A model generated the notes under the pieces. That model did no database searches, was not told where the DNA came from, and saw only the letters and a program-made list of their open reading frames with translations. Both the position numbers and the translations under genes were made by a program. A stretch of DNA of 25,796 bases, taken from IMG/VR virus record IMGVR_UViG_3300030102_002398, positions 1 through 25,796 of that record. One strand, 5' to 3'. Positions 3,080 through 16,423 of the stretch are shown here, piece after piece (positions within the stretch are counted from its first letter, which is position 1; each line of letters opens with the position of its first letter). The stretch comes from a virus.

Positions 3080-6000
3080 CTATTTGTTTTCGAGTTGAAA
3101 AGGTGGAATGTTGTAACGTTCTTGTTCTCGGATGTTAATTTTACGTTGGGTGACTGCAGCTTCAACATCCGCTCTTTGTGACATTTCTCTTTCAGCATTC
3201 TTTTTAGCCTTACGGAGAATTTTGTCAATGTTGTTGTATAGGTTGCCGAATTTTTCAGCTTTAGTTTCACCAGGGTTTGCAGCTTGTGACTTTCTGTAAG
3301 CTGCTTTCCATTTATCAGCAGGCATCCGATTCATAATCTTTTTAATCTCATTTCGGAAGTAACCTTGCTGACCAATAAGACTTAGCAGCTCTGATCGTTG
3401 AGCTGCAGTGTATTTGACACCTGCACTTGTGCTGGTAAATATAGGACGTGCATCGTATTCGATGTCAATGAGGTATTGACGTTCAGGTGAAATGCCATCT
3501 GCTTTTTTGAATGGAGCAGTAGCATTCCAAATACGTGTGAAGAAATCGTCAGCGTAACGGACAGGTTTGCCGTCAATCCAATCGTACTTACCAGGCAATG
3601 CACCAGGCACACCTAACTCGTCAAGAAAACGATTTCGGTTACGAAGGTGGCTCATGAAATCTTCTTCAAATTCACGAAGTTGAGGGGAGATAATCCTACT
3701 AAATTCAGCCCTAGCACCACTCAAAGGCAGCAGACTACTTGCAGTAGAAGCGGCAAACCTATTCATTGCAGCCCCACTGCCCTCAAAGATTTCGAGCATA
3801 GGACCAAGAGATGCAAGCATAGATTTATTTACAAGACTTGCACCAAGAATGTGCATCAACCTTTCTCTGAAGCTGTCCATTTCTAATGGCTCTAAGACAT
3901 CAAAGTTGTCCATAACATCTGCCGTCAAAGCAAGATAATCAGACAAAGGACCTAAACCATCATAAGTGTACCAGTTTCCATCAAGACCTTTAATACTGCG
4001 TGGCTGCCAGCCTACTTCCCTACGCATTTTTTGGCGTTCTTTGTCGAAGTGACCATTGCCGTGCAGTCGGTCATTCATAAACAGACCTGTTGCAAGCGTC
4101 ATAGTCACAAGACCAATCGCCTTCCTACCCCGCATTTCGGCTTGAAGGGTAGCAAAAGTTTGCTCAATGTTTTCGTCGATAGGCAGTCCCCTAGCCTTCA
4201 AAATATCTACAACCTCTGTGGTTGTAAAATCTTTTGGAGATTTACTTGCTAGTTTATTGATGTCTTGCTGGAAAACTGACCAGGGAGAAAATGTATCAGC
4301 TATACCCACAACGTTTGCTGATGTACGTGGAAACAGCATAAAGGGTTTGATTGCAGGGAATCTGTTGATGAGTTCACCAAGAGCATCAGCACCAGGGCTG
4401 TCAAGGTTAAGTGCCATCTCCCTACTAGCATAATCAACAGCCTCGTCCGTGATCATGCCACTAGAATCGAACATAGACGAATAGATTTCGTCAGAAGCTT
4501 GTTTGTAAGTTTGTTCGTTCAGTTCAACACCACCGTCAATAAATTTATCCCAGGCTCGGCCTCTTGCTTGAATGTTTGCTTCGACAGCTCTGGTAAATCC
4601 ATCCATTGCGGTCATGGCATTAGCACCAAACCTAAGCATCGGATTGTTAGAGAGATCCTGCATTGCTTGGGCTTGCTCAAACAAAACCCGTGGACCCAAA
4701 TTGCCTTCTTTCGCGGCAGCGTTAGCAAAGGCAAACAGCACATCCATCTGACCTTCATTTTCTTCTACAAGGTCTCTGCGCATAATGTAGCTAACAGAAG
4801 TCGGATCGGCAGAAGCCTTTCTAAAAACTTTTGCCAAATGACTAGAACCTTTTGACAGAGTGTCAAACACTGCTGAATATTGATACCACGCTCTGCGCAT
4901 AGTCTTCAAATCTCCACGCAATGCAGCGCCAGCAAAAATACTGATTGGTTTAGTCAGCATAAGAACTGAGTTACCCATCACAGCCTTTGCAGGCGTAGAC
5001 ACAGAAGTCAGAACGGAGTTATAGATGTTAGAGTAAAAACCACGAACAAGAACGTTAGGAATTTCTGGATTATCATCTATAAATGCCTTTCGCATGTCAC
5101 TCATGCTGCTGGTGACAAACTTCATCAGCTTATCAAGAGTATCGACGTTACCGTCAGTAAACTCCCATGCTAGTTGCAAAGGACGCAAAAAGTCTTCACG
5201 TTCTGCCGCCATTGTACGCAGTTCGTTTACAGTGGTTTTTGCTCTTGGAATGATGTCAGCAAGTGCATCTTGCGTGCGTGCTCTGGCATTCTCTGAAATC
5301 TCCAGCATCTTTTCTGGATCTTTAGCTATCCTATATCTTTCCCACAACTTAATGTTAGCTAGACCAGCACCACGATTGTAAGAAGCAATACCCTTTTCGA
5401 CAAGCAAATATTCCAAGCGATCTAGGATCATTTCTTGAGCACGCTTTACACCATCAGTTCCATCTAGCAAACGTGCACCTTCTGACATGTCAGCAACCTG
5501 ACCAGCCAAAGAGTGTGTAAGGTAAGCTTGTGCTTTGATGGTATCCATGTTCATATATTCGTCCATATATTTCTTGATTGATTTGAAGACAGCTTCATAA
5601 CCAACTTGTGAAATAGGTCGAATAGTACCTTTTAGAGTTTGAACTTCATCTTTAAAATTGTTGAGGAGTTTTTTAAGCTCACCACGATCCATGCGTGGAT
5701 CCATCATCTGTTCAGACAGAACTTCCGCAGCAGCATCACGTTCTGCAGCAGTCACTTTAAATCCATCACCTTCGTAGTCGAAGTTACCAGCTTTTTTGAG
5801 ATTTGCTACAAGCCGTTGGATGAAATTTCTAGACTTAAGATTGTCAGGTGCTAGTCCTTTTTTAATTGCAGCATCAGAAGCCATACTTCCAACCCTACCG
5901 TTAATGGTTTTTTTGTTGCCTTGGATGCGTGCTGCATCTACAGAAGCGCCAATAACACCACCATTATCTTCGGCACGGACACCCTCTTCATCAATATCAA

Positions 6001-14490: not shown

Positions 14491-15639
14491 TCAGAATGCA
14501 GCAGGCTTGGTAGCGGTTCCAGCGAACAGCTCCACGCAGGCAGCGGGATTCAGGTAGTCTGCGCCCATGGCGAGACGACCCAGCATCACGTCACCCTGGT
14601 AAACCACGGAGACATCTCCACTGGTCACTTGGACCTGAGGACCGATGCTTTCGACGCAACCAGCACCTTCGCGTTGGAAGATGAGGCCGCAGGAGTTAGC
14701 GAAGTTAGAAGCTTGGCCGTACTCGTTTTCGATACCAGTAACAGAGTTACGGGCATCTTCCAGACCTTCACCAACGAACGAACCAGTGTTACCGGGATCG
14801 GTCACACCAGGGTTGGTTGCAGAACCAGTACCGAACTTCGTACCATAGTTGGAGAAGAACGGGATGTTCATGGACTTGTAGATACGGATACCTGCAATCT
14901 CCATGATGCCTTGACCGGACTGCAGGGCATCACCCTGGGTGTCGCGGTTGACAAGGTAAGCGCCAGATCCGGTGCCACCGATGGCTTGGATCAGCTCGTA
15001 GTACTGACGGGGGTTGAGGACGGCAACGCGGCCCTCGGAGCTAACACCCTTCTCATCGAGGCTTGCAGCAGCGTCGTAGAAGGCTGCAACAAGGTTGTTA
15101 GCATTGTAAGCGTCAGATGCGTTAGTAGTAGAACCAACACGGATTTGAGTTCCGCCTGGCTCAACGAAGCCAGTCTTGCTGATCGGGGATGCTTGACGTG
15201 CACCACGGGTCAGGGCGCGGAAGATCAGACGGTCATACTTCTGAGCCAGAGCATAGCCGATCTTACGGCTAATCTCAGAACGCAGATCGTAGTGTGACAA
15301 AACTTCATCAAGTTCGTACACGAATGCAGAGCTGATGAGGAGCTGGTCGACCGTGATGGTCTTCTCAGCCACCGGAGGCGCACCGTCGGTGTTACCGAGG
15401 ATAGCGTTACCAGGGGTGTGGTATTCTGCCTTGGTGTGGCCGGTGTAGATGAACTGAAGAGACTTGCCGTTCTTCAGCGTGCGCTTCATAACGAGATCAC
15501 GGGCGATCGCATTATACTCGAAGCCTTTGAACATTTCGCCACTGAACAACTTAAGGTACAGGGCACGGGCGTTACCCGTAGAGTTAATCTGACCAGGCCG
15601 TGTAAGGCTCGTGGTCAGCGTAGAAGTCTGTTGTGCCAT
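14491..15639 (-). CDS. 10: Major capsid protein, gp10A-like
   Basis: This 382-residue protein is somewhat longer than T7 gp10A (345 aa). It has the HK97-fold capsid features of this phage family: a flexible N-terminal arm; NARALYLKLFSGEMFKGFE; KSLQFIYTGHTKAEYHTPG (extended-loop region); DQLLISSAFVYELDEVLSHYD; then an A-domain with VAVLNPRQYYELIQ and IAGIRIYKS. I do not see a gp10B-type frameshift extension after the stop; the terminator follows at once. No Shine-Dalgarno site precedes the ATG at 15639, only TCTTTTTTATA, so initiation probably depends on an unstructured or S1-bound leader, and on the hairpins just upstream. Confidence 0.96.
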   Translation of the reverse strand: MAQQTSTLTTSLTRPGQINSTGNARALYLKLFSGEMFKGFEYNAIARDLVMKRTLKNGKSLQFIYTGHTKAEYHTPGNAILGNTDGAPPVAEKTITVDQLLISSAFVYELDEVLSHYDLRSEISRKIGYALAQKYDRLIFRALTRGARQASPISKTGFVEPGGTQIRVGSTTNASDAYNANNLVAAFYDAAASLDEKGVSSEGRVAVLNPRQYYELIQAIGGTGSGAYLVNRDTQGDALQSGQGIMEIAGIRIYKSMNIPFFSNYGTKFGTGSATNPGVTDPGNTGSFVGEGLEDARNSVTGIENEYGQASNFANSCGLIFQREGAGCVESIGPQVQVTSGDVSVVYQGDVMLGRLAMGADYLNPAACVELFAGTATKPAAF

Positions 15640-15686: not shown

Positions 15687-15818
15687 TCAATTGTAATATT
15701 TGTGGTCTATCCCACCGTCTAGACGGCTGATGGGTATCCGCGTACGGGCCAAAAGCCAAAGCAGGGCAGGTCCTACTCCGAGGTGCCTACCCCACAGGCG
15801 TGGACGCTTTCCGGTCAT
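15687..15818 (-). CDS. Candidate 43-aa protein in the capsid leader
   Basis: A 44-codon frame starts at the ATG at 15818, preceded by AAGGAG three bases away, one of the strongest ribosome-binding sequences in the window. The product starts MTGKRPRLWGRHLGVG, continues with a hydrophobic PALLWLLA stretch and ends with SRLDGGIDHKYYN: basic, possibly one short membrane-associated helix. I do not recognise a family. The RLDG part is encoded by an inverted repeat (CCGTCTAGACGG), so selection for RNA structure could also explain the sequence. It fills most of the otherwise gene-free stretch before the capsid gene. Real gene or structured leader cannot be settled from one sequence. Confidence 0.45.
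   Translation of the reverse strand: MTGKRPRLWGRHLGVGPALLWLLARTRIPISRLDGGIDHKYYN
15711..15734 (-). repeat. Inverted repeat in the capsid leader
   Basis: A 12-base perfect palindrome, CCGTCTAGACGG, is flanked by CCCA on one side and TGGG on the other, with a 4-base bulge (TCAG). It could form a stable bulged hairpin in the capsid leader RNA. It lies inside the candidate 43-aa frame. Confidence 0.5.
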
Positions 15819-15878
15819 CCACTCCTTAAACCGTTCCTTCGGGCTTTACAATTGTGGAAAGCTCGAAAAATTTTTTAT

Positions 15879-15992
15879 TCAGTTTTTTACGTCTCGCTTA
15901 ACAATGTAAGCGACACCGCGATACTTCAAGACAACTTCTTTTTTTTGTGCTTGCTGTTCGCGGACACGTTGACGCACTTCGATTTGAGACAT
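15879..15992 (-). CDS. 37-aa YRG peptide behind the riboswitch
   Basis: The ATG at 15992 opens a 37-residue frame, MSQIEVRQRVREQQAQ, a KKE linker, then LKYRGVAYIVKRD. The YRGVAY core resembles the YRG motif of short cyanobacterial and cyanophage proteins (DUF4278-type), a similarity I infer by eye. It starts about 12 bases after the T run that ends a glutamine-II/downstream-peptide type RNA, and that RNA class is defined by being followed by short peptide genes. Cellular function is unknown; a small regulator of a nitrogen-related enzyme is conceivable by analogy with glutamine-synthetase inactivating factors, but nothing in the sequence proves it. No clear ribosome-binding site lies between the T run and the ATG. 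Confidence 0.65.
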   Translation of the reverse strand: MSQIEVRQRVREQQAQKKEVVLKYRGVAYIVKRDVKN

Positions 15993-16004
15993 GATTAAAT
16001 TCAG

Positions 16005-16066
16005 AAAAAACCTACCCCCCGTTCCATGAGTAGGTTGCCTGCGTCCCTATAAGGGATGAACGTACG
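16005..16066 (-). ncRNA. Glutamine-II / downstream-peptide riboswitch candidate
   Basis: Read on the minus strand, the core is CGTTCA, a TCCC-TTATA-GGGA hairpin (16056-16044), CGCAGGCA, the stem arm AACCTAC (16036-16030), a loop containing GGAACG, and the closing arm GTAGGTT (16015-16009), running into six T residues. CGTTC (16062-16058) pairs with GAACG (16024-16020) to form a pseudoknot. This arrangement matches the downstream-peptide motif, a relative of the glnA RNA; both are known to bind L-glutamine and occur in cyanobacteria and their phages. The closing stem plus T run could also act as a terminator, and the G-rich segment as a masked ribosome-binding site. It is located behind the beta-barrel gene and before a 37-aa peptide gene. 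Confidence 0.75.
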
Positions 16067-16078
16067 GCCTGAGCCTAA

Positions 16079-16423
16079 TCAGAACTCATAAACAAGTCCG
16101 ATTTTAGTGCCGAAATTGTTGTCAGCATCTGAGGTCATAAAAGATACCTCACCATAAGCAGACACACTGTCAGAAAGATCTACCGATCCTCCGACTTTGC
16201 CTGACAGTTCGACTTCAGCATCGCCACCATCAGGGGCTACAATTGCAGGTCCAGCCTGGATGTACCAGTTGTCCTTTTTGTAACCAACGTGGTTGTCGAT
16301 GACAGTGCCGCCGTAATCAGAACCAGAGAAACCTGAGTTGGCTTCTACATTCAAGTAGGGTCCTGCAGCGGCAGGGGCTGCAACAGCAATGAGTGCTGCG
16401 GGGAGGAAAGCAGTGAGCTTCAT
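16079..16423 (-). CDS. Signal-peptide outer-membrane beta-barrel-like protein
   Basis: This 114-residue protein begins with a clear secretion signal (MKLTAFLPAALIAVAAPAAA, likely cleavage after the AAA near residue 20). The mature part alternates polar and hydrophobic residues in short strands (GPYLNVEANSGFSG, then NWYIQAGPAIV, then VELSGKVGGSVDL, then AYGEVSFMT) and ends in GLVYEF; a terminal aromatic is the hallmark of Gram-negative outer-membrane barrels. From memory, similar small proteins occur in cyanobacteria and T4-like cyanophages. It is odd to find an exported protein inside the head-morphogenesis block. It might alter the infected cell's outer membrane, block superinfection or be a minor virion component; the sequence does not decide. 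Confidence 0.75.
   Translation of the reverse strand: MKLTAFLPAALIAVAAPAAAGPYLNVEANSGFSGSDYGGTVIDNHVGYKKDNWYIQAGPAIVAPDGGDAEVELSGKVGGSVDLSDSVSAYGEVSFMTSDADNNFGTKIGLVYEF

Follow-up and report, generated by a model that had tools for sequence, protein, structure and literature searches.

A Glutamine-II riboswitch and a short YRG peptide gene between the scaffold and capsid genes of T7-like cyanophages

Genomic context of the riboswitch and of the peptide gene

The window considered here, that is, the whole stretch of DNA analyzed, is a 25.8-kb virus record of a T7-like cyanophage, whose closest named record is the uncultured phage MedDCM-OCT-S28-C3. All the genes of the region lie on the minus strand, in the order scaffold protein (PF05396), small basic proteins, outer-membrane-like protein, riboswitch aptamer, short peptide, intergenic region, and capsid protein. 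The relevant features are listed below.

16079 to 16423, minus strand: cyanophage outer-membrane-like protein (OMP; PF24653, E value of 1e-39), ending 13 nt before the aptamer
16010 to 16065, minus strand: Glutamine-II riboswitch aptamer (RF01704 match and covariation in relatives)
16062 to 16058 and 16024 to 16020, minus strand: aptamer pseudoknot, CGUUC pairing with GAACG
16056 to 16053 and 16047 to 16044, minus strand: aptamer stem P1, UCCC pairing with GGGA
16043 to 16036, minus strand: aptamer junction CGCAGGCA
16043 to 16040, minus strand: ligand junction CGCA within the aptamer
16035 to 16028 and 16017 to 16010, minus strand: paired strands of aptamer stem P2, with a long loop
15993 to 16009, minus strand: T-rich aptamer-to-peptide linker of 17 nt (GGTTTTTTCTGAATTTAATC)
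15879 to 15992, minus strand: 37-aa YRG peptide gene (MSQIEVRQRVREQQAQKKEVVLKYRGVAYIVKRDVKN), DUF4278-like, with a single C-terminal repeat (open reading frame [ORF] with an ATG start)
15700 to 15795, minus strand: strongly conserved and apparently structured leader preceding the capsid gene, separate from the riboswitch, with GCCGTCTAGACGGTGGGATAGACCACAA as its 3' core
14491 to 15639, minus strand: major capsid protein, gp10 (PF21703, E value of 2e-71), 239 nt beyond the peptide gene

In many relatives, the tblastn context showed psbA at the position that the OMP gene takes in the window. A weak match to PhotoRC-I was noticed within the region between the peptide and capsid genes, both in the window (15796 to 15844, plus strand) and in the related locus L001 (5983 to 6031, minus strand); it was set aside, with 26 bits against a cutoff of 45 and an orientation antisense to the genes.

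Identity and structural conservation of the aptamer

The search of both strands of the whole window with Rfam cmscan returned a single match at the gathering threshold, namely, RF01704 (Glutamine-II, or Downstream-peptide), at positions 16065 to 16010 of the minus strand, with 56.4 bits (gathering cutoff, 33 bits), an E value of 2.2e-11, and complete coverage of the model (1 to 60). A sequence-only reading of this DNA had proposed a riboswitch of the Downstream-peptide/glnA class; the first of the two covariance models confirmed the proposal over its full length, whereas the glnA model (RF01739, Glutamine-I) stayed at 20.2 bits, short of the 35 required, and the aptamer is therefore assigned to type II. 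The hairpin, the junction, the long-loop stem, and the CGTTC/GAACG pseudoknot described in that reading are all present, and the span that it gave for riboswitch and peptide gene together, 15879 to 16066, is correct to within one base.

The glutamine contacts and the architecture of the binding site are known from a crystallized Glutamine-II RNA (PMC6698751). When the window aptamer was mapped onto that structure, the equivalents of C1, G2, G18, C19, C39, G40, G41, and the A33-G42 pair were all found to be kept. The crystallized RNA, labeled "Prochlorococcus sp. RS01," has a CGCAUG junction, as in the phage type; an exact match to it was not found in the viral contigs, nor did blastn recover one in phages. 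The element of the window is a well-supported representative of an established riboswitch class, its peptide gene is genuine, and binding of glutamine by this copy would be expected.

The conservation of the structure was evaluated on 50 distinct sequences, taken from the capsid-selected set described below and from the named phages. Standard pairs fill 98.3% of the pair cells, and changes on both sides occur in 13 of the 18 pairs, 12 of which belong to P1 and P2 and 1 to the pseudoknot. None of 500 shuffles attained any of these values, and sliding the partner strand by one base abolished the signal. Thus, P1 and P2 covary strongly, in an alignment that was fitted to the P1 and P2 of the model and is somewhat biased toward those helices. 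The pseudoknot is otherwise nearly invariant, its lone compensated pair being represented by the CGUUU/AAACG form of SS120-1.

The YRG peptide

The short frame that had been noticed right after the aptamer proved to be a 37-aa ORF with an ATG start, located 17 nt downstream. In particular, PF14105 (DUF4278) aligns with the peptide only at profile positions 37 to 57, which are the last 21, with an E value of 0.0017 and 19.1 bits; since the Pfam gathering cutoff of 25.3 is not reached, we refer to the peptide as DUF4278-like rather than as a member of the family. A match to PHROG 5049 was also obtained (E value of 0.00047).

Among the unique viral aptamers with enough downstream sequence, an ORF with the [YF]RGxx[YF] motif is present within 65 nt downstream in 283 of 285, compared to a fraction of 0.0007 (0.07%) in the shuffled control. 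The exceptions are represented by L209, where the motif reads YRS, and by L473, which is probably a chance match to the motif. The start codon of the peptide lies mostly 21 to 28 nt downstream of the aptamer core in the viral relatives. Toward the N terminus, the peptides vary widely from lineage to lineage, and only xxYRGxxY is constant; furthermore, 65% of the single-base codon changes between pairs of relatives are synonymous, compared to the 25% expected under neutrality, and the peptides are therefore under coding selection. The tight spacing between aptamer and peptide, together with their co-occurrence, suggests that the riboswitch acts on the peptide gene and does so at translation initiation, and on these grounds the peptide would be the conserved target of the riboswitch. 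In the linker of the window copy, no clear Shine-Dalgarno sequence was found.

Distribution across cyanophages

A late structural operon had been regarded as an unexpected place for a nitrogen sensor. The comparison with related phages contradicts this view, since the site between the scaffold (gp9) and capsid (gp10) genes is the normal location of the cassette in marine T7-like cyanophages, as we observed in the named cyanopodoviruses. A blastn search of the named phages with the short phage cassette gave no match, and a capsid protein search was used instead. An aptamer above the Rfam cutoff occurs in 15 of the 21 named cyanopodoviruses examined (L001 to L003, L005, P-SSP10, 9515-10a, NATL2A-133, P-GSP1, S-TIP37, P-SSP7, P-SSP2, NATL1A-7, S-CBP4, SS120-1, and S-TIP28), and the search of whole records, carried out for 20 of the 21, revealed a single aptamer copy per genome. 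S-SBP1 carries a variant form, with a gene within the P1 loop. In S-CBP3 (L333, 3626 to 3760), the aptamer is decayed (18.7 bits in our own model) and has lost the CGCA junction, yet it still precedes an intact YRG peptide (MSIQVTYTYRGVKYTKTVNR). S-B28, S-CBP2, Syn5, and P60 have neither the aptamer nor a YRG peptide between the scaffold and capsid genes.

In a set of 127 records, which included the window and the named phages, T7-like cyanophage genes flank the aptamer in 125. As this set derived from a pattern scan of IMG/VR in which parts of the motif were fixed, a second set was selected by the capsid protein alone; here, the aptamer is present in 40 of the 42 loci with at least 1,300 nt upstream of the capsid gene, a set made up of the nearest relatives and not of a random sample. 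A second form of the motif (AGGGAACGGG) occurs in 81 contigs, some of which do not match any T7-like test gene, and the cassette probably extends to other cyanophages, or to several phage groups, as far as can be judged from these sequences. L428, L430, L437, L448, L451, and L458 have no T7-like test-gene matches yet feature Glutamine-II aptamers and YRG peptides, some of the latter with two repeats or long C-terminal tails. The contig L209, with a phage-type aptamer, psbA, and the capsid gene, is a T7-like cyanophage contig inside a bacterial assembly.

We found no paper describing the cassette in cyanopodoviruses in the open literature searched, so that, within this literature, its occurrence as one copy at this site in nearly all marine T7-like cyanophages appears to be new. 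For T4-like cyanophages and for a methylophage, glutamine riboswitches have already been published (PMC9004378, PMC9964418).

Comparison with known glutamine riboswitches

The phage aptamers share with the Glutamine-II class (RF01704; Weinberg 2010, PMC2864571; Huang 2019, PMC6698751) the fold and the core, above the curated cutoff, as well as the short YRG ORF downstream, which in the class ranges from 17 to 100 aa. However, different from the host copies, the linker reads CGCAUG or CGCAGG rather than being similar to CGCAGUUCGA, P2 is fully paired whereas the host copies feature a C-A mismatch, and the cassette is located at the gp9-gp10 site of T7-like phages. Host Glutamine-II riboswitches in Prochlorococcus and Synechococcus contigs precede proteins with two or three repeats, compared to the one YRG repeat of the phage peptide. 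Both host proteins tested exceed the Pfam cutoff for DUF4278, whereas the phage peptides tested match the last repeat below the cutoff or do not match at all.

The picocyanobacterial type 2 genes, such as PMM1846 (DUF4278; PMC6316151), present the same riboswitch class ahead of small YRG-repeat proteins; these are 33 to 65 aa long, with two to three repeats and DUF4278 above the cutoff, different from the window peptide, which is limited to profile positions 37 to 57 below the cutoff. A glutamine riboswitch class also occurs in other aquatic phages, namely, methylophage Melnitz, Pelagibacter phage Mosig, and T4-like cyanophages (PMC9004378, PMC9964418), but the Melnitz element has been described as glnA-like and linked to tmRNA, with no YRG peptide, and differs from the window aptamer, with its low glnA score.

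Proposed mechanism

We consider it probable that the element is a glutamine-ON, translational Glutamine-II switch that controls the phage YRG peptide and that this peptide acts on a partner in nitrogen assimilation. Glutamine would bind the pseudoknot core of the aptamer, and the pseudoknot and P2 would then be locked a short distance ahead of the start codon. The adjacent gene would thereby be controlled in cis, with initiation of translation as the most likely step and activation as the most likely direction, and high glutamine in the infected cell would lead to production of the peptide. The ON direction is suggested by the type 2 riboswitch of Prochlorococcus, where glutamine binding activates expression (PMC6316151). 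As for the expression platform, when 107 phage leaders were folded by partition function, aptamer formation was predicted to leave the accessibility of the start region unchanged, and no partner that would sequester this region emerged. Along with this result, the lack of a clear Shine-Dalgarno sequence in the window copy, the DUF4278 match below the cutoff, and the intact peptide behind the decayed aptamer of S-CBP3 speak against the proposed switch.

The partner touched by the peptide would most likely be glutamine synthetase (GS) or an IF-like GS regulator, a guess that derives from the repeat shared with the host DUF4278 proteins. DUF4278 resembles the N terminus of IF17, a part that a review calls disposable for IF17 function, and the role in GS control of the short picocyanobacterial DUF4278 proteins still awaits proof (PMC6316151). 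The YRG repeat of DUF4278 is the only feature that the phage peptide shares with an IF17-like inactivating factor.

It is also quite possible, although we lean against it, that the riboswitch is real and the peptide has no role in nitrogen metabolism, being instead a virion or assembly peptide, or one directed to another host target, whose production is merely timed by glutamine. The position among the head genes and the great variation of the N-terminal parts would fit such a role, whereas what stays constant coincides exactly with the repeat of the host proteins encoded behind the same riboswitch class.

The capsid gene and its own leader

A further role that had been suggested for the riboswitch is the control of the capsid gene. 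Such control might also concern the late head operon and could, for instance, involve P2 and the following T-run as a glutamine-modulated terminator. In the window, TTTTTT does follow P2, and the cassette normally lies upstream of gp10. However, a T-run after P2 is found in only 11 of 283 relatives, and such a terminator was rejected as a general mechanism of capsid attenuation. Moreover, the OMP gene or psbA separates the cassette from the capsid gene in many relatives, with the position of the peptide remaining fixed, so that the constant distance from the aptamer is that of the peptide and not that of gp10, and gp10 follows a conserved leader of its own, kept in the aptamer-less S-B28. Control of the capsid gene by the riboswitch is thus not supported, and we regard it as improbable that this is its main function.

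The core of this leader (GGGATAGACC) was recovered as 149 distinct segments among related loci, and GACGGTGGGATAGACC has one exact copy in the window, as in every one of the five phage genomes tested, and is found in S-B28 as well. No Rfam match was obtained for the leader on the coding strand. Its end (GGGATAGACCACAA) resembles the start of T7 phi10 transcripts, so that the element may represent either a promoter or a leader that is processed. The leader is found at the same place in L001, L003 to L005, L323 to L326, and L329 to L331. Its parts are a hairpin with a UACG-type loop and a varying stem, GATACC, the palindromic CCGTCTAGACGG, and GTGG-GATAGA-CCAC, with a GTAGG/CCTAC variant. In L114, L308, L297, and L055, the first hairpin (GGGAGGTTCGAGTCCTCCC) resembles the T-arm of a tRNA and may be closed by an acceptor-like stem, and in other phages it is replaced by CACCTCAGAGTCGGACC.

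Very little speaks for an aptamer that acts backwards, as a 3'-untranslated region element of the upstream gene, which is psbA in most relatives: the aptamer begins about 12 to 13 nt past the psbA stop codon in many of them, but the window has the OMP gene and no psbA there, SS120-1 and S-TIP28 carry the aptamer with no psbA in that region, and the distance from psbA ranges from about 12 to more than 1,000 nt, with psbA lying downstream in some loci. The association with psbA was accordingly rejected, as a common neighbor that is not required. Least credible of all is a host-derived relic with a short chance ORF, functionless in the phage, for which one could invoke the decay in S-CBP3 and the four named phages with no aptamer, against the compensatory pairs, the coding selection, the presence in 40 of 42 loci, and the single-copy synteny.

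The controlled translation of the YRG peptide remains our preferred reading, and the position of the cassette beside gp10 in the majority of related viruses suggests that the nitrogen status of the infected cell is sensed by these phages. The phages of the main photosynthetic bacteria of the ocean need host nitrogen for their capsids and DNA, and, as the laboratory model P-SSP7, whose peptide has 17 aa, is among those with the capsid-adjacent sensor, viral nitrogen sensing would be directly testable in existing phage-host pairs. Furthermore, many short and mostly unannotated phage genes (13 to 62 aa) are hereby grouped in one family with the host DUF4278 proteins.

A gene nested in the P1 loop

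S-SBP1 and many IMG/VR contigs carry a complete gene of 51 to 60 aa, gp32 in S-SBP1, in place of the P1 loop. A regular-expression search retrieved 54 unique P1-loop inserts, 51 of which contain an ORF longer than 45 aa. In the commonest form, the ATG lies within the 5' strand of P1 (CGTTCATCTATG), and in 47 of the 51 the TGA stop codon comes right after the ligand-contact junction and shares bases with it (CGCATGA). The pairing of P1 is compensated between the forms of the insert (TCTATG/CATAGA, TCTTCT/AGAAGA, and TCCT/AGGA). A WPGG motif is common to the encoded proteins, and PHROG 628, of unknown function, matches the two forms tested (E values of 1.5e-5 and 2.1e-13). The synonymous fraction in the nested ORF, 0.88 versus 0.22, indicates strong coding selection. 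Riboswitches that enclose a gene within the aptamer are not otherwise known to us.

It is possible to hypothesize, as a speculative and rather unlikely extension, that T7-like cyanophages have in the Glutamine-II aptamer a near-universal gauge gating a single-repeat DUF4278-like peptide that retunes host glutamine synthesis and that, in one branch, the gene nested in P1 couples translation physically to glutamine sensing. Aptamers with a nested gene include those of L323 (S-SBP1, 3516 to 3714), L254, L256, L257, L261, L262, L266, L268, L275, L282, L296, L313, L342, and L351, among others.
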